Virus record (IMG/VR): IMGVR_UViG_3300025108_000115
Coordinates: 1-43,109 of that record
DNA from: a virus
DNA: 43,109 bases
Direction: 5' to 3' (one strand)
Shown: positions 7,874 to 24,311 of the stretch, one piece after another
Layout of the letters: every line of letters starts with the position of its first letter
How positions within the stretch are numbered: position 1 is the first letter of the stretch
Position numbers and translations under genes: made by a program
Notes under the pieces: model-generated
Told to the model about the DNA's origin: nothing
The model's database searches: none
The model's input: the letters and a program-made list of their open reading frames with translations, nothing else

Positions 7874-8227
7874 GGTCTATTGGGCCCATGTAAGCCAGAG
7901 GAGTGGTGCCCTTTGGTGTGGATATGCGGTGAGATTGGGATCCCTGTTAGTGAACTTTTACACGCAGGATCCCTTTCTCTAGCTTTCTAGAAAGACCAAA
8001 ATTAAATCAAGAACATCAAGGTTGTAATACCTGGGGTTGCCAACTGGCCCTAAAACTAAGTTGTATCCCTGTTAATAAAGACACAAATGAACACCCCAGT
8101 TGGGGTCTCGTAGACAACACGAGGAACCCCCCTGGGGTGACTTGGGTAGTCCCAGAGCTGGCAGAAGTGATATCAATAACCATCACCATCATCACAATGC
8201 CATATACATATATTCACTACTATTACT
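7874..8227. other. 354-bp palindrome-rich intergenic region
   Basis: No credible gene. It holds a Syn5-promoter-like 17-mer (7879-7895), the palindromes GGGATCCC (7937-7944), CTTTCTAGAAAG (7983-7994) and ACCCCAGTTGGGGT (8093-8106), and a near-palindrome ACCCCCCTGGGGT (8126-8138). GGATCCC recurs at 7967-7973. It ends in an AT-rich leader (CATCACCATCATCACAATG) before the next gene. Possible uses are a promoter cluster or DNA processing near the genome end; I cannot tell which. Confidence 0.6.
7879..7895 (+). promoter_or_regulatory. Candidate phage RNA polymerase promoter, copy 1
   Basis: ATTGGGCCCATGTAAGC, six bases after the large-terminase stop. It matches 12 of 15 positions of the Syn5 RNA polymerase promoter as I remember it (ATTGGGCACCCGTAA). 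The same 17-mer recurs at 12325-12341. Confidence 0.45.
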
Positions 8228-11515: not shown

Positions 11516-13843
11516 ATGCCTGAAGACCTCAGCCTCGTTAGTCGTCAACTACAGCGCGAGACTCAATCACAAGAAGAAGCACGCATCCGCCTACAGACCA
11601 AAACCAGAGCAGCAGAGGACAAATCCTATGCATCCAGCACGATCTACGGGCAGAAAGCTGTCAAAGCCCTGCTTGATCCTGTAGCCACATGCATCACAAA
11701 AAGGTTATTCACACTTAGACGTGGTTCAGCTGCTGTTGATGCAGTTGAGGTCTACAAGCATTTAGCTGACGCCGATCCTCAATCTCTTGCATTAATCACT
11801 ATGAAAGTTGTTCTTGATGTATTAGGTAAAGAGCCCGAGCCTGGTTTGCAAGAACTGACCACAAAGATTGGGGCCGCTGTTCAGTTAGAGCTTCGGATGA
11901 TCTACTACTCCGAGCAAGAACCTGAACTTTATAAGAAAACTGAGTTCTTCTTCCACAAATCAGCTGGTACACAGCAAAAAGCAACCGTCTTTAAGCGTGC
12001 ATTCAATAAAGAAAAGATTGAATGGGAAAGGTGGACACGCACCACTAATCACAAGGTTGGAGCTTGGTTGATTGTCTGCCTAGCTGAAACCACGGGCTGG
12101 CTTGAACGAAAGACAATTCAACACGGCAAGAAAAAGAAGCGGGTGATGACATACACACGAGAGTTTCTCGAGCAGCGTGACACCATCATTGCTGCCGCTG
12201 AATCTTTTGCGTTCTGTCAATGGCCGATGCTTTGTCCACCAGTTGACTGGTCAAACGATCAATCAGGTGGCTACCTAACCGAATCAGTGAGGCAATCTAA
12301 CCCGCTAATTCGTAAAGCTGGTTCATTGGGCCCATGTAAGCAAGGCGACATTCCTTTGGCCATGTTGAACACTCTTCAACATCAGGCTTACAAGGTGAAT
12401 CCCTTGGTCTTTGCCGTAGCTGATCACTTCTACGAGCACAAGATTTCAGTTGGAAAATTCCGCTGTGATGCTCCGATGCCTCTACCAGAAAACACCCTCA
12501 CTGAAGATGCTTCTGAGGATGAGGTGAAGGTATACAAAAGAGCAAGGACAACGGCTGAAAACTACAACTCAATGCTCCCCCAGAAAAACTGGAGGACGAC
12601 TGAGGTCATGTATGTAGCTCGAAAATATGCCTCTGAAGAAAAGTTCTGGACACCCGCATCGTTTGACTACCGAGGCCGTGTCTACTTTCAAAACTCCGCA
12701 CTCAACCCACAAGGGACGGACTTCGATAAGTCTCTTCTTTTGTTTGCTGATGAAGGACCAGTTAACGAGTACTGGCTCGCCTTCAGCGCAAGTACGTGCT
12801 GGGGCTTGGATAAAGAGACGATGGCCACGAGAGTTAAATGGACCCGATCCAATACAGATCTAATCAAGCGCATTGCTGCTGATCCCATTCACAACCATGA
12901 ATGGCGTGAAGCTGACGAGCCCTGGTGCTTCTTAGCCTCAGCGCTCGAATACTCGGCATGTGTACTTGAGGGTACTAAGACCACATCCGGTCTTCCTATT
13001 GGTATTGATGCCACCTGCTCAGGTCTCCAACATCTCTGCGCGATGACTCGCGACGAGGCTGGAGCCTTGGTCAACGTCACACCAACCGAGAAACCAGCTG
13101 ATGGCTATCGAACTGTGGCTGAAAAAGCTAAGGAGTATCTACCTGAAAAGTATCACGAGTGGATGAACCGTAAGGTCACAAAACGCTCTGTGATGTGTAC
13201 GCCATACGGGGTGACTCAAAACTCAGCCCGCAACTACATAAGGCTAGCCCTGAGAGAGGAAAAGCGCGAGTTCGAAAGCACAGACCTGACCTCTATCACC
13301 AACGCAATATTCCGAAGGGCGATCCCCGAAATCTTCCCCGGAGCGATTGAAGTGATGAAGTGGCTTCAGGGTTCAGCCCTGGAAATCATGGATAGAGGAG
13401 AGGAAACCATCCAATGGACCACAGCTTCAGGCTTTGTGGTTACACAGGATCTCCGTCACTCCAACACAGTCGAGGTCAAGACCCGGCTTATGGGTGGAGC
13501 TCGAGTCAAGTCAATCATTGGTGATGGCTACGCCGGTCCAGACCGTGCTCACCACCGCTCAGCACTTGCGCCAAACGTAGTGCATAGCGCCGATGCTGCC
13601 CTCTTACATCTGACCTTCGCCTACTGGGACAAGCCCTTTTCCGTCATTCATGACTGTGTGTTGGGCCGCTCCTGTGACATGGATCAGATGGCCTCCGATA
13701 TTCGCCTGCATTTCTCCGAAATGTACAAAGGTGATGTGCTCGAGGACTGGGCAAAAGAGGTTGGCGTTCAAGTCCCCAATGGTTTGATTAAAAACACCCT
13801 CGACATCAACAGTGTCAACGATTCCCACTACTTTTTCTGCTGA
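11516..13843 (+). CDS. Single-subunit DNA-dependent RNA polymerase (T7-like)
   Basis: 775 residues, about 100 fewer than T7 RNA polymerase and near what I recall for Syn5. Diagnostic motifs are present: DYRGRVYFQN (D at about 384), the catalytic aspartate in IGIDATCSGLQHL (about D498, T7 D537), KRSVMCTPYG (K556, Y564; the T7 O-helix K631/Y639) and IHDCVLG (second catalytic Asp about D713). T7 has Ser after that Asp; this protein has Cys, as mitochondrial polymerases do. It should transcribe phage middle and late genes. Start ATG 11516 follows a CCAC element and a GGGAG. A Syn5-promoter-like 17-mer lies inside the gene (12325). Confidence 0.96.
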   Translation: MPEDLSLVSRQLQRETQSQEEARIRLQTKTRAAEDKSYASSTIYGQKAVKALLDPVATCITKRLFTLRRGSAAVDAVEVYKHLADADPQSLALITMKVVLDVLGKEPEPGLQELTTKIGAAVQLELRMIYYSEQEPELYKKTEFFFHKSAGTQQKATVFKRAFNKEKIEWERWTRTTNHKVGAWLIVCLAETTGWLERKTIQHGKKKKRVMTYTREFLEQRDTIIAAAESFAFCQWPMLCPPVDWSNDQSGGYLTESVRQSNPLIRKAGSLGPCKQGDIPLAMLNTLQHQAYKVNPLVFAVADHFYEHKISVGKFRCDAPMPLPENTLTEDASEDEVKVYKRARTTAENYNSMLPQKNWRTTEVMYVARKYASEEKFWTPASFDYRGRVYFQNSALNPQGTDFDKSLLLFADEGPVNEYWLAFSASTCWGLDKETMATRVKWTRSNTDLIKRIAADPIHNHEWREADEPWCFLASALEYSACVLEGTKTTSGLPIGIDATCSGLQHLCAMTRDEAGALVNVTPTEKPADGYRTVAEKAKEYLPEKYHEWMNRKVTKRSVMCTPYGVTQNSARNYIRLALREEKREFESTDLTSITNAIFRRAIPEIFPGAIEVMKWLQGSALEIMDRGEETIQWTTASGFVVTQDLRHSNTVEVKTRLMGGARVKSIIGDGYAGPDRAHHRSALAPNVVHSADAALLHLTFAYWDKPFSVIHDCVLGRSCDMDQMASDIRLHFSEMYKGDVLEDWAKEVGVQVPNGLIKNTLDINSVNDSHYFFC
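12325..12341 (+). promoter_or_regulatory. Candidate phage RNA polymerase promoter, copy 2 (inside the RNA polymerase gene)
   Basis: ATTGGGCCCATGTAAGC, identical to 7879-7895. Here it encodes part of SLGPCK. If active it would read through the 3' two-thirds of the polymerase gene into the integrase region. Confidence 0.4.
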
Positions 13844-14019: not shown

Positions 14020-14457
14020 ATGCCAAAGATCACGAGTGATCAAGCGTTTAGGGCCTTCCTAATCACTGAGCTCCTTCGATCCACGGGAGAAAAGGAGTTC
14101 CCAATGCAGCTTGCCTCAATCTTTTTCTGGATTGCTTCCCACAACGGATGCCGTCAAGAGGACGTATCAAAGGCTTGCAGCATTGCCGCTTCCACTGCGA
14201 GTCGGAACATCACCTGGCTCGGTCCTAGGCACAGGCTGGAGCATCGCTCTGGCTTACGGCTGGTCATTAGGAAACAGGACCCGAATAACCACCGGGCCTG
14301 GCGTTTGTTTCTCACGCCTAAAGGCGAGCAGTTCGTAAGGCTGCTGGAGAACCAACTCAACCTGCCGACTTCAACTTTGGAGAAGGCCGTCGTTTCTATC
14401 AAAGAGCAAATCTCACATGACAGCCCAGACGATCAAGACGATGGGTCAGGCGTATGA
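14020..14457 (+). CDS. MarR-like winged-helix regulator
   Basis: 145 residues. A winged helix-turn-helix of MarR type is readable: FPMQLASIFFWIASHNGC, the helix-turn-helix REDVSKACSIAASTASRNITWL (quoted as two parts: RQEDVSKACS and IAASTASRNITWL), then the wing (RLVIRKQDPNNHRAWRLFLT) and a C-terminal helix (GEQFVRLLENQLN). It likely binds DNA as a dimer. It sits directly before and overlapping the integrase, suggesting control of integration or of the early genes; the CCAC element upstream could be its own target. Confidence 0.7.
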   Translation: MPKITSDQAFRAFLITELLRSTGEKEFPMQLASIFFWIASHNGCRQEDVSKACSIAASTASRNITWLGPRHRLEHRSGLRLVIRKQDPNNHRAWRLFLTPKGEQFVRLLENQLNLPTSTLEKAVVSIKEQISHDSPDDQDDGSGV

Positions 14458-15268
14458 CTCGACATGGCGTCTTAAATGGCGACACTCAAAGGCTTGTAAG
14501 ACAGCCAAGATCAACGCCAAACACGTACTCGACTATGCAGGTCGGTCTCTTCCACTAAGCCGCGTGAAAAAAACTTCATGGTGGCTGGAGTTCATCTCTG
14601 ACCTCAGGGATGAGGGCCGCAACACGTCAACCATTAACCGCATCGTGAGTAACGCCACGACGATGGTTCGGTTCACCCGTGCTGCTGGCTTACACGAAAT
14701 CGACGTGCCTCCGTTCCTCCGTCCTAAGGAGGGCGAACACAGGATGACCTACTTCTCTAAGGAGCAAGTGCAGCAGCTGGCATTCACAGCTGTGGACATC
14801 TTCGACAACAAGGCATTAGCCGACGCGATCATCTTCTCTGCCTACACAGGCGTCAGACAAGGGGAGCTACTGAAGTTGAAGTCCGAAGACTTTGACCCGG
14901 CACTCAACCAAATATGGGTTGGTGGTAAGCCCGGACGCGATACCAAAGCAGGTGACTGTCGCAACATCACTTTGCATCCACTTGTAGAACCAATCGTTAA
15001 GGACCGATTAGCTCAGGCCTATCTCTTTAGAGATGACTGGACTAACAAAGATCAGCTGTACGCAGCTTTCAAAAAGGTCCGCAAGTTCTGCAGCATCACA
15101 GAGGACCACTGTTGGCATTCACTGAGGCATTCCTTCGGGACCTTCCTCGGCGAACAAACACACCCTCGCCAAATCATGGCGCTGATGGGGCACAAGCAAA
15201 TCTCAACCAGCTTGAGATACGTGAAGGCCACAGACGCTGCCACTAGATCCGCTGTTCTCGCTATCTAG
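14417..15268 (+). CDS. int: Tyrosine recombinase (integrase)
   Basis: 283 residues with all catalytic residues: Arg I in YTGVRQGELLKLK, Lys in GGKPGRDTKAG, the HxxR box in WHSLRHSFGTFLGE, His in LMGHKQISTS and the Tyr nucleophile in LRYVKA. The N-terminal ~110 residues form a SAM-like core-binding domain. The gene overlaps the MarR-like gene by 41 bases; ATG 14441 (MGQAYDSTW) is an alternative start with less overlap. A tRNA-Leu-like att candidate lies 85 bases downstream, the classical arrangement for tRNA-targeting integrases and the one described for P-SSP7. Confidence 0.93.
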   Translation: MTAQTIKTMGQAYDSTWRLKWRHSKACKTAKINAKHVLDYAGRSLPLSRVKKTSWWLEFISDLRDEGRNTSTINRIVSNATTMVRFTRAAGLHEIDVPPFLRPKEGEHRMTYFSKEQVQQLAFTAVDIFDNKALADAIIFSAYTGVRQGELLKLKSEDFDPALNQIWVGGKPGRDTKAGDCRNITLHPLVEPIVKDRLAQAYLFRDDWTNKDQLYAAFKKVRKFCSITEDHCWHSLRHSFGTFLGEQTHPRQIMALMGHKQISTSLRYVKATDAATRSAVLAI

Positions 15269-16641: not shown

Positions 16642-16784
16642 CCTCATCCACTTTTGAAGACACGCTCATCTACAGAGTCGATCGCTTTGTGCAATCGCTT
16701 GAGGCTGAGGGTAAAGAATTTGAGGTGATCCTCGATGCTCTCCTCGAATATGTAGACGTCTGCGATGACGTCTTTGGAAAATGA
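16638..16784 (+). CDS. Small acidic hypothetical protein (48 aa)
   Basis: ATG 16638 overlaps the endonuclease stop (ATGA) and the 3' end overlaps the primase start, forming a coupled chain. Acidic and helical (MTSSTFEDTLIYRVDRFVQS, EFEVILDALLEYVDVCDDV). No family recognised. Confidence 0.55.
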   Translation: MTSSTFEDTLIYRVDRFVQSLEAEGKEFEVILDALLEYVDVCDDVFGK

Positions 16785-18366
16785 ATCCGAATTTATCCGC
16801 CATGAACCGTGCCCAAATTGCAGTAGCTCTGATGCTTTCGGTGTATACACTGACGGTCATGGCTTTTGCTTTTCTTGTGGTCACTGGACACCGGGCTCCG
16901 AATACCAGTCCAATCCACCAAACACACATCGCCGAATGATTCAGTATGACGGGGACTTTGCTCCCCTTCGTAAACGCAAGATCACAGAAGAGACTTGCAA
17001 AAAGTTCAACGTCAGGCAACAGGGACCGGCTCTACGGTTCCCTTATTACTCCTCCACTGGTCGCGTTGTGGCCTACAAAGAACGGAGTCCTGATAAAAAG
17101 TTCACTTGGACAGGTAAGAACGAAGAGCACCAACTCTTTGGCCAACATCTCTTTGGTACTGGCAAAACTATTGTTATTACTGAGGGAGAACTAGACGCTC
17201 TAAGTGTCTGGCAAGCTCGTCCTAACTGGCCTGTAGTCTCTGTCCCTAATGGTGCACAGAGTGCTCGTAAAGCCTTGCAGCATCAGCTTAACTTTCTACT
17301 CGGTTTCGATGAAATCGTGTTGATGTTTGACAACGATGAGGCAGGCGTGAAGGCCACTGAAGAGTGCATCGACCTCTTTCCGTCTGATCAAGTATTCATG
17401 GCCACTCTAGGCCAATTCAAAGACGCCTCAGATGCGATACAGGTTGGTGATGCAGATGCGATTAGACAATCCATCTGGAACAAACGCTCTTATGTCCCTA
17501 AATCAATCATAGATGGTAGAAGTCTTTTTGATCTCGTATCTTCTCCTTTGCATGGTAGGGATGCTACTTACCCCTTTGATGGTCTTAATGAGATCACCGG
17601 AGGAATACGACTAGGTGAGTTAGTAACTCTGACGGCTGGCTCGGGGACGGGGAAGAGCACCCTATGTGGCGAAATAGCCACTCATTTAGTCAACCAAGAT
17701 CAGACCGTCGGATACATAGCACTCGAAGAGAGTGTTAAGCGTACCGGCCTAAGGCTGATGACAGTTGCCGCAAACAAACCCTTACACATTGACAACCAAA
17801 TTAATGATGAACTCTTTCGTAGATCCTTTGATAGTACTCTCGGGTCTGGTCGGCTTTTCCTTAGGGATGGTTTCGGCAGTTGTGATCCTGACAGCCTTTT
17901 AAATGACATCCGCTATCTCGTTAAAGCTAACGGGGTGCAGTGGGTAATCCTTGATCACCTGAGCATCTTGCTGTCTGGTAATGACAACCAGGATGAACGT
18001 AAGACCATTGATCTGACCATGACCAAATTGAGGTCGTTTGTTGAGGAGACAGGGATTGGAATGCTGCTTATCTCTCACCTCCGCCGACCACAAGGCGACA
18101 AAGGTTTCGAGGATGGAGCAACAGTCACCCTCAACTCACTACGAGGTAGTCAGGCAATCGCTCAACTGAGTGATCTAGTCATTGCTCTTGAACGTGACAT
18201 CCAGTCAGGCGATAACGCCTCAAAGCTTGTCGTGTTGAAGAACAGATTCAATGGACGTACAGGCCCAGCCGCAACCCTTGCCTATGGCCAGGACACAGGA
18301 CGTCTTCAAACCGCATCAGCAAACCCCTTCACTTCCACTCAGCCAAACAAAGACTATGGCTTCTAA
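16765..18366 (+). CDS. Primase-helicase (T7 gp4-like)
   Basis: 533 residues, near T7 gp4 (566). Domains in order: a zinc finger with C16, C19, C35, C38 (PCPNC, FCFSC); a TOPRIM primase core (VITEGELDALSVW about 136, MFDNDEAG about 190); then a RecA-like helicase with Walker A TAGSGTGKSTL (about 290), WVILDHLSIL (about 395), LLISHLRRP and the arginine-bearing C-terminal motifs (LKNRFNGRTG). It unwinds DNA and primes lagging-strand synthesis with SSB and polymerase. The start overlaps the previous small gene by 20 bases. The 3' end carries the thioredoxin gene's CCAC element within codons for STQP. Confidence 0.95.
   Translation: MTSLENESEFIRHEPCPNCSSSDAFGVYTDGHGFCFSCGHWTPGSEYQSNPPNTHRRMIQYDGDFAPLRKRKITEETCKKFNVRQQGPALRFPYYSSTGRVVAYKERSPDKKFTWTGKNEEHQLFGQHLFGTGKTIVITEGELDALSVWQARPNWPVVSVPNGAQSARKALQHQLNFLLGFDEIVLMFDNDEAGVKATEECIDLFPSDQVFMATLGQFKDASDAIQVGDADAIRQSIWNKRSYVPKSIIDGRSLFDLVSSPLHGRDATYPFDGLNEITGGIRLGELVTLTAGSGTGKSTLCGEIATHLVNQDQTVGYIALEESVKRTGLRLMTVAANKPLHIDNQINDELFRRSFDSTLGSGRLFLRDGFGSCDPDSLLNDIRYLVKANGVQWVILDHLSILLSGNDNQDERKTIDLTMTKLRSFVEETGIGMLLISHLRRPQGDKGFEDGATVTLNSLRGSQAIAQLSDLVIALERDIQSGDNASKLVVLKNRFNGRTGPAATLAYGQDTGRLQTASANPFTSTQPNKDYGF
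18331..18346 (+). promoter_or_regulatory. CCAC leader element, copy 11 (inside primase gene)
   Basis: ACTTCCACTCAGCCAA, 9 bases before the thioredoxin ATG 18356, embedded in the primase-helicase 3' end. Confidence 0.55.
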
Positions 18367-18640
18367 AGCAATCCTGTTCACCAAGGAAGACTGCCTCCCC
18401 TGTTCTCAAACAAAACTATTCATCTCTGATGTATGTGATGAGCAGCTTGTTCATGACTATCTAGTTGTAATGAAGAAGGAGAATCACTCAGCTCTTGTAG
18501 CTGCCTATGAGTTGGAATTGTTTCCCACCTTGCTGCTAGTTAATAGCCAGGGTGAGGAATCAAATCGAATTGTAGGTGGTAAGAACATCCGTAGAGAACT
18601 CCCCTACATCCTCCAAGGATTACAAGAGGCAGGTCAATGA
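18356..18640 (+). CDS. trx: Thioredoxin-like protein
   Basis: 94 residues from ATG 18356. An in-frame ATG at 18251 adds 35 unrelated residues and was rejected, because the thioredoxin fold begins at MASKAILFTKEDCLPC and a CCAC element precedes 18356. The redox motif is CLPC; the cis-proline region is ELFPTLLLV. In T7 host thioredoxin is the DNA polymerase processivity factor; here the gene is encoded by the phage and overlaps the polymerase start (ATGA). It could serve the polymerase, the phage RNR as reductant, or both. Confidence 0.85.
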   Translation: MASKAILFTKEDCLPCSQTKLFISDVCDEQLVHDYLVVMKKENHSALVAAYELELFPTLLLVNSQGEESNRIVGGKNIRRELPYILQGLQEAGQ

Positions 18641-20391
18641 GACTAGTCTTCGACATTGAAACAGATGGCCTACTCCGTGAGTTGTCTGTCATTCATTGCA
18701 TCGTTGCTCGTGACCTTGACACCAATCAAGAGTATCGATGGGACAACGGAGATATTCCTGGTGGCCTTAAGTTTCTAGGTGAAGCTGATGAGCTATGGGG
18801 ACACAATGTGGTTGGCTTTGACTGTGAAGCCATCAAGGAATTAAACCCAGACTGGACTTATAAAGGAAAACTATTTGACACACTCATCCTCTCCAGGCTC
18901 TTCTTCACCGACTTACTGGACAAAGACTTCAGAACTAAACCTGCCAATATGCCGGCCCAACTTTACGGCCGGCATTCATTGGAGGCGTGGGGGCACAGAC
19001 TCTCTGTCCATAAGTCCGAGTTTGGTAAGTCGCTCGACGGTGATTGGTCTACATATACGCCAGAGATGCTCGAGTATTGCAGCCAAGATGTGGCTGTATC
19101 AGTGCGGGTCTGCCGTATGTTTGAGCCTAAGCTTGAGCAATACAAAGATTGCATTGAGACAGAGCATCGAATTGCGTTGCTCATGGCGTGGCAAGAAAGA
19201 GAAGGGTTTCCCTTTGATGTTCAGGGTGCTCAGTTACTCGAATCAAAACTAAGGACAGAGCTAGATCAAATCTCAGACGAGATGCGAGATACGTTCTTGT
19301 TTGTTGATGGTGGCCTTTTCACACCCAAACGTGGTAACTCCACGAGAGGTTATGTTGAAGGTGCTGCTATGTGTAAGTTAAAAGAATTTAGTCCTACCAG
19401 TAGAGACCACATAGCGTGGGCCTTTGAGACATTCAGAGGTTGGGAAGCTACAGAGCGAACCCCATCTGGTAGAGCAAAAATTGACGATACCGTTCTTAAA
19501 GAGATCGGAACACCTGAAGCCCTTAAATTTTCCCGAATCCTTGAACTACAAAAACATCTCGGTCAGTTATCTGATGGCAAAAATGCTTGGCTCAAGCTCG
19601 AAAAAAGAGGCAGGATCCATCATTCCTGCATACTTAACACCAATACGGGACGTCAGGCACATCTTAAGCCGAATCTCGCGCAGGTCCCGTCGGCGTCAGA
19701 GTACCGGGCTCTCTTCGGTCCCGGAGATGGTCGTGTCCAAGTTGCTTCTGACGCCTCTGGTTTGGAGCTTCGATGCCTTGGTCACTATCTACATCCATTT
19801 GACAATGGCAAGTTCTCGAAAGAGGTAGTTGAAGGTGACATCCACACCTCACTAGCTGAGATCTACGGAACAGATAGGAAAACAGGGAAGTCTTGTACCT
19901 ATTGTTTGATATATGGGGGCGGCAATACAAAACTAGGGCTTACAGCTGGGGCCTCTAAGGCATCAGCAGCCCACAAAGGTAAGGAGATTAGGAAACGTAT
20001 CCTTGATGGATTAGACGGCTATAAACAACTGTCAGAGGCCATACAGGAACGTGCTACTGCTACCGACACTCTTAAGGGGTTGGATGGCAGACCTATTCGC
20101 CTTCAAGGTAAACATCACGCTTCCTTAAATTATCTTTTGCAAAGCGCAGGAGCAATAATTTGTAAATCTTGGCTGATAAGAGCCTACGAACTATTAGACG
20201 AAGCAGGCATTGACTATTGGCCCCTGGCATTCGTACACGATGAGCTTCAAATTTCAGTCTCGCCTAACCAAGTTGCAGAGGCTGAGTTCTTAATAACCGC
20301 TTCTTTAAAAGACATTGAGCACAAACTTAAATTTAGATGTGCCCTCGACTCAGAGGCACAACACGGAGCCACTTGGGCTGACTGTCATTAG
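18637..20391 (+). CDS. DNA polymerase, family A (T7 gp5-like)
   Basis: 584 residues against 704 in T7. Exonuclease motifs: FDIETDGL (4-11), HNVVGFDCEAI (about 56) and YCSQDVAV (about 147). Polymerase motifs: A, DASGLELRCLGHY (D about 372); B region, KTGKSCTYCLIYGG; C, VHDELQ (D about 535). TGRQAHLKPNLAQVP precedes motif A. The thumb insertion that binds thioredoxin in T7 is much shorter here: about 30 residues (GGLFTPKRGNSTRGYVEG region) before FSPTSRDHI against about 80. It replicates the genome with proofreading. Confidence 0.95.
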   Translation: MRLVFDIETDGLLRELSVIHCIVARDLDTNQEYRWDNGDIPGGLKFLGEADELWGHNVVGFDCEAIKELNPDWTYKGKLFDTLILSRLFFTDLLDKDFRTKPANMPAQLYGRHSLEAWGHRLSVHKSEFGKSLDGDWSTYTPEMLEYCSQDVAVSVRVCRMFEPKLEQYKDCIETEHRIALLMAWQEREGFPFDVQGAQLLESKLRTELDQISDEMRDTFLFVDGGLFTPKRGNSTRGYVEGAAMCKLKEFSPTSRDHIAWAFETFRGWEATERTPSGRAKIDDTVLKEIGTPEALKFSRILELQKHLGQLSDGKNAWLKLEKRGRIHHSCILNTNTGRQAHLKPNLAQVPSASEYRALFGPGDGRVQVASDASGLELRCLGHYLHPFDNGKFSKEVVEGDIHTSLAEIYGTDRKTGKSCTYCLIYGGGNTKLGLTAGASKASAAHKGKEIRKRILDGLDGYKQLSEAIQERATATDTLKGLDGRPIRLQGKHHASLNYLLQSAGAIICKSWLIRAYELLDEAGIDYWPLAFVHDELQISVSPNQVAEAEFLITASLKDIEHKLKFRCALDSEAQHGATWADCH

Positions 20392-21935: not shown

Positions 21936-22221
21936 AGAGTTTGAGGAGTTTGCTAACTCTTGCGGTATGTCATTTACTCAACTTGAAGAGTATGACACGC
22001 AGGTTGAACCTGACACCAACCAACTCAAAGAACTAGCTGACCTTGTATATGTCTGCTTCCAATATGCAGCTGCTAGAGGATGGCCATTAGATGAAGCTCT
22101 AGATAGAGTTTACGGCTCCAATATGTCCAAGCTGGTCGATGGTAAACCCCTGCGTCGTGAAGACGGGAAGGTGTTGAAAGGCCCTAACTACAAACCACCT
22201 TACCTAGAAGATTTAGTTTAA
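21817..22221 (+). CDS. MazG-like nucleoside triphosphate pyrophosphohydrolase
   Basis: 134 residues from ATG 21817; ATG 21841 (MGQAIQFRKVM) is an alternative. All-alpha NTP pyrophosphatase features: LRLIVEEFEEFAN (E-x2-E type metal site) and QLKELADLVYVCFQYAAARG (E-x2-D). The C-terminus has KLVDGKPLRREDGKVLKG and PNYKPP, as in phage MazG proteins. Possible roles are dNTP cleansing or lowering (p)ppGpp as proposed for cyanophage MazG. It overlaps DUF3310 by 119 bases and ends on the RNR ATG. Confidence 0.8.
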   Translation: MLFQAPDLMGQAIQFRKVMNQPIATENAVVHTLQLRLIVEEFEEFANSCGMSFTQLEEYDTQVEPDTNQLKELADLVYVCFQYAAARGWPLDEALDRVYGSNMSKLVDGKPLRREDGKVLKGPNYKPPYLEDLV

Positions 22222-23591
22222 TGTCCAAATACATTGCAAGAACAGGTCGAGTTCAGAGCTGGCTCGATAACCCTGAATCAAGGCTCCCAGTGTCATGCAC
22301 TGTGTTTGTTGTAGAAGACTCTATGGAGGGTCCAAATGGAATCGAAGCATCATGGCGATTCGTTAGCCACGCCTTACGGAATGCCGCTGGAGTCGCTGTC
22401 CATTTATCTAAACTCCGTCCAAGGGGTACAGAGAATGGAAAGGGTCTCGTCTCTTCAGGTCCAGTGTCGTTTGCAAGGATCTACTCTGGACTTAACGAAA
22501 CTTTAAGGAGAGGCGGACACTACAAAAATGGCGCTTGCGTTATTACATTAGACCTCAATCATAAAGACGTAGAGGAGTTCGTAGACGCTACCCGTCAAGA
22601 ACTTCCTTGGGTCAAAAAGTGTCTACAAGTTACTCCCAAATGGTGGCATGAAACCAGCGAGCTTCTCAGAAATAAGATCCTACGAGGTATCCAATCAGGC
22701 GACATCTGGCTCTCGAAAGTCAAGCATGATCAGAATGGTGAGCGAATTTTTTCGAATGTTTGCCTCGAGATCTTCCTCAAATCCAGAGGCACCTGTCTCC
22801 TTGAACACGTCAACGTTGGTAACTGTGAGATTGACGGGCTTGTCCCCGCTTTCACTCAAGGTATGTCCAACTTGTGCGGCCTCCATTCAAAGACAGGTGT
22901 CGGAGCAACTGGAGAATACCTCGCCCCTGAGGAAGATAAGCAAGTGGGCCTTGGAATCCTTGGGCTTGCCAACTTTCTACGGCGTCAAGGTGTTAGCTAC
23001 GCCGCCTTCGGAGAAGCCTTAAGAGATTTAGATGACCTTAATAAAGACTGGACTCCTGCTATCTGCCTTGCTACTGAGCTGCGTTCCGCCATTAATGTCG
23101 CTGCTAACATTGCACGTGCTCATGGGATGGCGAGAGCCTTTACTATCGCTCCCACAGCCTCCTGCTCCTACAACTACACAGACCTCGACGGTTATACAAC
23201 CTGCCCAGAAATAGCACCTCCTATTAGTCGTCATATTGATCGTGACTCAGGCACCTTTGGAGTCCAGAGTTATGACTATGGCGATGTGGAGATTGCTAGT
23301 GAGGTTGGTTGGGATGCATATAAATCAGTAGCTGATGGTATTTGTCAGCTCTTTACTAATACCGGCCTCTTCCACGGTTATTCATATAATTCGTGGAGCG
23401 ACGTAGTTACATACGATCAGGCTTTTATCGAGGATTGGTTTAACTCTCCTCAAACCTCGCTCTACTATGCCCTACAGGTGATGCCAGACACACTCCGAAA
23501 GGATGATGTCACATCGATCCTTGATGAGGACTACCACGATATTTTTGGAATAGAAGAGGAGGACAACTTTTGTCTTTCTTGTGCAGAATAA
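22221..23591 (+). CDS. nrdA: Ribonucleotide reductase, large (alpha) subunit, short class I type
   Basis: 456 residues, far shorter than E. coli NrdA (761), with no ATP-cone. Catalytic N179-C181-E183 (SNVCLEIFL), redox Cys C26 (VSCTVF) and about C219 (NLCGL), the radical-transfer Tyr pair Y415-Y416 (SLYYAL) and a C-terminal CLSCAE tail that accepts electrons from thioredoxin-like proteins. The Tyr pair and the adjacent beta-subunit gene argue for class I; cyanophage homologues were once called class II. It makes dNDPs for phage DNA. Confidence 0.88.
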   Translation: MSKYIARTGRVQSWLDNPESRLPVSCTVFVVEDSMEGPNGIEASWRFVSHALRNAAGVAVHLSKLRPRGTENGKGLVSSGPVSFARIYSGLNETLRRGGHYKNGACVITLDLNHKDVEEFVDATRQELPWVKKCLQVTPKWWHETSELLRNKILRGIQSGDIWLSKVKHDQNGERIFSNVCLEIFLKSRGTCLLEHVNVGNCEIDGLVPAFTQGMSNLCGLHSKTGVGATGEYLAPEEDKQVGLGILGLANFLRRQGVSYAAFGEALRDLDDLNKDWTPAICLATELRSAINVAANIARAHGMARAFTIAPTASCSYNYTDLDGYTTCPEIAPPISRHIDRDSGTFGVQSYDYGDVEIASEVGWDAYKSVADGICQLFTNTGLFHGYSYNSWSDVVTYDQAFIEDWFNSPQTSLYYALQVMPDTLRKDDVTSILDEDYHDIFGIEEEDNFCLSCAE

Positions 23592-24311
23592 ATGTCTAAG
23601 TACACACAAATCTTGTCTAGGAAAAGAACCTGGACCCCAGTAGCAGTTACAGCGGGCGAGCTAAAGCCTGGATCGGAGGAAACAATCTACCGATGCTTAG
23701 CTCTCCGCGCGCTCGAACTTCCGGTGAAAGAGATGTTGGCCCAAGGTCTTGAGCGCCACCTACCTGATGACCCCGGAGTTCTACCCGCACTTCAATCCAA
23801 CATGGCCGATGAAGACAAGCATGATCGGGCTCTCAATTTTATCGTTGACGTTCACGGCGTTAACGATGGAGCTGAAAGGGAGGCCGAAAGAATCCGCGAG
23901 GCTTGGCTCAGCGATCCGTCACATCCGATCCTCAAGACGGCAATTCTTGAGCGGTCAGTCTTTTTCGTACTCCTACCCTTCTTTAGGTTTTGTGGAGACG
24001 TCGGAATCCGTACAGTTGCCAGCGACATCTCACGGGACGAGCAGACCCATACGGCTCTCCATGCAATGTGTGCCCACGACATCGGAGAGAAGACCACACC
24101 TGCCCTCAACAAGCTCCGACGAGCCACTGTTGCTTGGGCTATGGATAAGTTAGGCCACTCCTCAGACAAGCACCTTAATAAGGAGTTCTGGATGAGACAG
24201 TCGGACTCTCTTTATCATCAAGGTAAAGCCCCAGGACTCGTTGAAACTCAGCGAGCCAGGATGCCTTGCTTCTTTGAAACATCTAACGTTAATTTACCGC
24301 AATATGGCTGA
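23592..24311 (+). CDS. nrdB: Ribonucleotide reductase, small (beta) subunit, no standard radical tyrosine
   Basis: 239 residues against 376 in E. coli NrdB. Two ExxH metal motifs are clear, E74-D-K-H77 and E150-Q-T-H153, with further acidic ligands likely at E42 and E120 (ILERSVFF). Four residues after H77, where E. coli has radical Tyr122, this protein has Leu (HDRAL), and no Tyr lies in that helix. A published reannotation of the cyanophage (P-SSP7 type) RNR describes such tyrosine-less class I beta subunits. The gene starts directly after the alpha subunit's stop. Confidence 0.78.
   Translation: MSKYTQILSRKRTWTPVAVTAGELKPGSEETIYRCLALRALELPVKEMLAQGLERHLPDDPGVLPALQSNMADEDKHDRALNFIVDVHGVNDGAEREAERIREAWLSDPSHPILKTAILERSVFFVLLPFFRFCGDVGIRTVASDISRDEQTHTALHAMCAHDIGEKTTPALNKLRRATVAWAMDKLGHSSDKHLNKEFWMRQSDSLYHQGKAPGLVETQRARMPCFFETSNVNLPQYG

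Follow-up and report, generated by a model that had tools for sequence, protein, structure and literature searches.

A viral genome carries a short open reading frame that encodes a thioredoxin and overlaps the start of a T7-like DNA polymerase gene, which raises the question of what a phage thioredoxin does at this position. The first-pass annotation, made from the sequence alone, offered two options: either a dedicated thioredoxin docks on a reduced thumb loop of the polymerase, or the loop has lost binding and the thioredoxin serves the phage ribonucleotide reductase (RNR). We analyzed the whole stretch of DNA (43,109 nt, hereafter the window), which belongs to a Syn5-like cyanopodovirus of marine clade A (MPP-A), as placed by polymerase phylogeny and by a gene order around the polymerase in line with that of Syn5.

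Results

Gene organization around the phage thioredoxin

Three replication genes and two motifs define the locus:

16765..18366, plus strand, T7 gp4-like primase-helicase, 533 aa (PHROG 239, E 4e-183; Pfam DnaB_C and Toprim)
18356..18640, plus strand, thioredoxin-fold protein, 94 aa, with CLPC, cis-Pro57 and a KENH motif (AF2, Foldseek, Syn5 gp25 orthology)
18392..18403, plus strand, CxPC redox motif, C13-L-P-C16
18476..18487, plus strand, KENH motif, K41-E42-N43-H44, just before the cis-Pro loop
18637..20391, plus strand, family A DNA polymerase with 3'-5' exonuclease, T7 gp5-like, 584 aa

The start codon of the thioredoxin gene lies inside the 3' end of the helicase gene (TAT GGC TTC TAA, with the helicase stop at 18364-18366) in the +1 frame, and its stop codon overlaps the polymerase start as ATGA, as the first-pass annotation had recognized for the CLPC protein and the polymerase. 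The two overlaps therefore chain the three replication genes. The same annotation placed the thioredoxin under its own leader element, which does not agree with a start codon within the helicase gene. Near that start we found no sigma70-like promoter, plus-strand terminator, Syn5-type promoter match, Rfam match or inverted repeat, and RNA folding there was not beyond that of shuffled sequences (z -0.54). Far upstream, an identical 15-mer, ATTGGGCCCATGTAA, occurs at window positions 7879-7893 and 12325-12339; the copies are possible phage promoters, three mismatches from what we take to be the Syn5 RNA polymerase promoter consensus, and the number of such matches in the window is weakly above chance.

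Elsewhere in the window, two ORFs, one small and regulator-like (14020-14457) and one integrase-like (14417-15268), fit the arrangement of genes in Syn5 and S-TIP28, which includes an integrase. A 667-aa ORF at 200-2203 has NTTGxxNxAxGxxAL-type repeats and an end that resembles an intramolecular chaperone, and is probably a fibre protein.

A divergent thioredoxin with invariant cysteines

The 18356-18640 product was modeled by AF2 with a pLDDT of 94.6, and its best PDB matches by Foldseek are thioredoxins, many of them at a probability of 1.00. The CxxC motif (CLPC) and the cis-proline (P57, in FPT) are in place and the Trp that precedes the motif is missing; scores against the curated profiles fall short (PF00085, 16.7 bits versus 23.5; TIGR01068, 18.2 versus 96.8). 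By its predicted fold and its motif, rather than by sequence profile, the protein is thus a divergent member of the family. Orthologs are Syn5 gp25, the S-TIP28 protein annotated as 'thioredoxin', and proteins of S-CBP42 and P60. That the ORF arose as a mere chance reading frame was ruled out by fold, conservation and selection.

The CxPC motif and the cis-proline are invariant across 50 non-redundant Cys-type homologs, down to approximately 35% identity, and H44 of the KENH motif is 96% conserved among them. We read this as selection on redox in the Cys-type lineage; a structural clamp would need no cysteines. W31 and G74 of E. coli thioredoxin, which we take to be contact sites, align with D12 and L55 of the window protein.

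A thioredoxin in most clade A phages and none in clade B has been published (PMC9381782), and from 2003 on such thioredoxins were proposed to serve marine T7-like replication as a universal accessory cofactor (Hardies 2003, as cited in PMC2784036); the occurrence of the gene as such is therefore known.

The gene travels with the replication module

We searched viral contigs with a motif taken from the thioredoxin itself and recovered 55 loci. The gene stands directly before the polymerase gene, with at most one small gene between, in 52 of the 52 loci that have enough downstream sequence, the contigs of the other 3 ending inside or just after the gene. An RNR accompanies the thioredoxin wherever a locus extends 3.5 kb or more past the polymerase. 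Since the thioredoxin-bearing phages form one clade, common descent rather than function may account for both links. The small gene of Syn5, gp26 (L001:8753-9004), occurs in some clade A phages, where it leaves a gap of about 245 nt, is absent from the window and gave no convincing Pfam or NCBIfam match.

Exchange of the thioredoxin between close phages is indicated by sequence identities: L009 and the window share 90% identity in the polymerase and 87% in the helicase versus 44% in the thioredoxin. Thioredoxin distances track those of the helicase (partial r 0.275) and not those of the polymerase (0.077) or nrdA (0.069), the latter two not being significant. As a means of finding a partner, this mirror-tree comparison was set aside: the helicase scored best, but the signal is confounded by gene neighborhood, neighbors traveling together.

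The polymerase thumb carries a short hairpin

The window polymerase, 75% identical to Syn5 gp27 and 72% identical to that of S-TIP28, is of the T7 type in fold and family (T7 gp5 match, E 3e-74; Foldseek TM 0.88). Its thumb differs from that of T7:

19285..19386, plus strand, short thumb hairpin, polymerase residues 217-250, 34 aa, at the site of the 76-residue thioredoxin-binding domain of T7

The hairpin consists of two strands (residues 222-228 and 245-250 in the AF2 model). In the alignment, T7 gp5 residues 258-333 (76 aa) correspond to 34 aa, so that the thioredoxin-binding insertion of 71-76 residues is not there; the hairpin retains its base (FTPKR...GY) and lacks the central ∼45 residues of the T7 loop. 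The shortening that the first-pass annotation estimated, to about 30 residues, is thus real.

Loop length was surveyed in 208 non-redundant polymerases. It is 34 residues in all 53 polymerases with a thioredoxin neighbor, and also in four without a thioredoxin match, SS120-1, L042, L043 and L139, the contig of L139 being cut before the thioredoxin slot. Other thioredoxin-less marine groups have loops of 19-53 residues, SIO1 among the phages measured having 46, and T7-type phages have 65-86 residues; one outlier of 77 residues (L195) is poorly aligned. The compared stretches of SIO1 and VpV262 carry no annotated thioredoxin gene. A tie between loop length and thioredoxin presence was therefore rejected over the 208 polymerases. 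Judged from these alignments, the short hairpin is the common state outside T7-type phages, and the long tip of T7 looks like an elaboration of it. Accordingly, short hairpins being usual, the shortened loop drops out as an argument, and the suggestion that the loop has lost binding finds no support.

SS120-1 is nested among thioredoxin-bearing phages, but its helicase gene abuts the polymerase gene and the thioredoxin is absent. Where the other polymerases are 97% or more conserved in an alignment column, that of SS120-1 has no change peculiar to it. With loop length unlinked to thioredoxin presence, this polymerase unchanged and CxPC invariant, docking of a dedicated thioredoxin on the reduced loop is not supported.

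We therefore consider it quite improbable that the phage thioredoxin acts as a T7-like processivity factor, tethering the polymerase to DNA from the reduced hairpin in place of host thioredoxin. The constant position directly before the polymerase and the cofactor role proposed by Hardies (2003, as cited in PMC2784036) speak for such a factor, as does the persistence of the fold in a Cys-less clade described below, redox being likewise dispensable in T7 (PMC3997047). However, the docking tip of T7 is missing, the 34-residue hairpin recurs in SS120-1, L042 and L043, none of which has a thioredoxin, other phages without one have comparably short hairpins, the SS120-1 polymerase was left unaltered at conserved columns by the loss, the thioredoxin has been swapped between close polymerases, and the invariant CxPC would go unexplained.

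Among polymerase genes of the comparison set, the ORF lies in two reading frames in the genome records of S-CBP42 (L087:8001-9763) and P-SSP7 (L091:5983-7748), whereas a separate S-CBP42 pol record (EF535234) gives a match in one piece; split or frameshifted polymerases of the P-SSP7-like kind are common in clade B.

The RNR tail as a candidate redox client

Downstream of the polymerase lie the genes of an RNR:

22221..23591, plus strand, class O (zero)/Cyano SP RNR alpha subunit, 456 aa (7urg, S-CBP4 alpha, E 3e-204; YY dyad, no ATP cone)
23571..23582, plus strand, CLSC tail motif of RNR alpha, a likely thioredoxin substrate
23592..24311, plus strand, ferritin-like RNR beta subunit (PHROG 6799, E 1e-112)

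The minimal alpha subunit without an ATP cone, the YY dyad, the double-cysteine tail and the adjacent ferritin-like beta subunit assign this enzyme to class O (Cyano SP), and the alpha subunit ends in FCLSCAE, in keeping with the CLSC tail described in the first-pass annotation. Class O RNRs have been placed as ancestral to classes I and II; their tails are CXXC or CXC, and their reducing partners were left to be identified (PMC9531940).

We scored the tails of 114 non-redundant class O alpha subunits and counted loci in which the helicase-polymerase slot is visible. A CXXC tail is found in 27 loci with thioredoxin and in one without (SS120-1), and a CXC tail in 31 loci without and in none with. 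On the RNR tree the tail type changed once and thioredoxin presence twice, so that the association, which favors RNR as the redox client, is suggestive only and amounts to one evolutionary split. Across the class O tails (L360-L439), CXC is CDC in 78 of 79 and CXXC is CSSC in 22 of 35. The proposal that the thioredoxin serves the RNR is thus supported by constant co-occurrence with RNR and by the CXXC and CXC pattern, subject to that single split, and is the better of the two original options.

Some observations weigh against the RNR as client. SS120-1 keeps a CXXC RNR without a thioredoxin, and the thioredoxin gene lies ∼4 kb from nrd and is never beside it.

A Cys-less sister clade retains the thioredoxin fold between helicase and polymerase

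Neither of the original options foresaw a sister clade in which the cysteines are lost. In 12 distinct genomes with a class II RNR (S-CBP2, L140, L141, L282, L285-L287, L293, L298, L300, L302 and L349), a thioredoxin-fold ORF stands between helicase and polymerase with both cysteines gone. The H44-like residue, Y51 and the (F)PT cis-Pro strand are kept in the best-aligned members; for the most diverged (L298, L302 and L349), homology rests on profile E-values near 1e-10 and on position. These ORFs are under purifying selection: L140 and L141 differ by 31 synonymous and 4 non-synonymous changes (omega 0.025), other pairs with estimable dS give omega values of 0.025-0.28, and wrong-frame controls give values above 10.

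On the polymerase tree the Cys-less clade is sister to the Cys clade, the Cys state changing once and the RNR class three times. Raw counts (class I RNR with cysteines in 34 of 34, class II Cys-less in 12 of 14, setting aside L024 and L128, whose contigs are cut inside the gene) might suggest that the switch to class II RNR drove the loss. This was rejected on the one Cys change versus three RNR changes and on P60 and S-CBP42, members of the Cys clade that acquired a class II RNR there and still have CxPC. The thiols may, given these two phages, serve another client.

One such client would be host redox-regulated enzymes (Calvin cycle, peroxiredoxins), the thioredoxin acting as an auxiliary metabolic gene. 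A passage on auxiliary metabolic genes names thioredoxin among the gene differences between clades A and B (PMC9381782), and CxPC is invariant though the RNR class varies. The gene is, however, locked in a replication operon, its cysteines were lost in a whole clade, and the host targets are putative, which leaves this explanation a slender chance.

All 12 Cys-less ORFs are in the +1 frame to the helicase, and 9 of the 12 have no in-frame ATG near the helicase stop, versus 3 of 44 Cys-type loci. The nine S-CBP2-like ORFs (L089:7444-8004, L140, L141, L282, L293, L298, L300, L302 and L349) include some with TTT TAA or TTT TAG at the helicase stop. Such ORFs may be expressed by frameshift as a fusion or from a non-standard start codon.

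Because the fold persists at this position in the sister clade after loss of the cysteines, the family probably has a further role in replication that does not depend on redox. This bears on the simpler explanation that reduction of RNR is the only function and that the Cys-less clade was repurposed for something unrelated. The invariant CxPC, the RNR that is always present and the CXXC versus CXC tails are as that explanation would have them, but the helicase-polymerase slot is kept even where the RNR type was replaced, and the Cys-less homologs retain the slot, the H44-like residue, Y51 and the cis-Pro strand. We regard it as a doubtful explanation, though one to be taken seriously.

Discussion

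The explanation that we prefer, and to which we give about an even chance, is that the window thioredoxin is a redox partner of RNR with a second, redox-independent role, and not a T7-type clamp. It would be a dithiol protein that the phage encodes as part of the clade A replication module, translationally coupled with helicase and polymerase. Its CLPC would re-reduce the CXXC tail of the phage class O RNR and so make dNTP supply independent of host reductants. With the docking tip absent, it would not clamp the thumb loop in the manner of T7; retention of the fold in the Cys-less clade points to a redox-independent role, probably in the replisome. The explanation draws on gene anatomy, the absence of the loop tip, the invariance of CxPC, the tail association, and the Cys-less clade and its selection; from these we infer RNR as the client and the replisome as the site of the second role. 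The distances that follow the helicase, rather than nrdA or the polymerase, count against it.

A bolder version, which we consider unlikely, holds that the slot protein of clade A is a true replisome subunit with need of neither the T7 loop nor thiols. The Cys-type protein would double as reductant of the CXXC class O RNR and tie dNTP supply to the fork, and the Cys-less clade would be structural only, maybe as a +1 frameshift helicase-thioredoxin fusion or through a non-standard start. The Cys-less clade amounts to a set of natural mutants with which the redox and the structural roles of phage thioredoxins can be told apart, a problem that dates from when these proteins were called replication cofactors.

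The window differs from each of the known systems that it resembles. It shares with T7 gp5 and E. coli thioredoxin the fold and family of the polymerase and the thioredoxin fold of the partner, but its thumb insertion has 34 rather than 76 residues and its thioredoxin is phage-encoded, short and divergent. In Syn5 and S-TIP28 the helicase gene is likewise followed by an ortholog of the thioredoxin, annotated as such in one of them, and the polymerase is the same; in these phages an extra small gene (gp26) lies between thioredoxin and polymerase, whereas the window genes overlap directly. The Prochlorococcus siphovirus P-SS2 likewise has a phage thioredoxin in an RNR-bearing genome, placed directly before a class II nrd gene rather than before the polymerase (PMC2784084). 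The RNR resembles the class O enzyme of S-CBP4 (7URG), which the window alpha subunit matches, with the YY dyad and the beta gene alongside. The S-CBP4 tail, however, is CNC and no thioredoxin homolog was found in that phage, in contrast to the CXXC tail and phage thioredoxin of the window. The phage thioredoxin that accompanies the CXXC-tailed subset is a concrete candidate for the reducing partner of class O RNRs.
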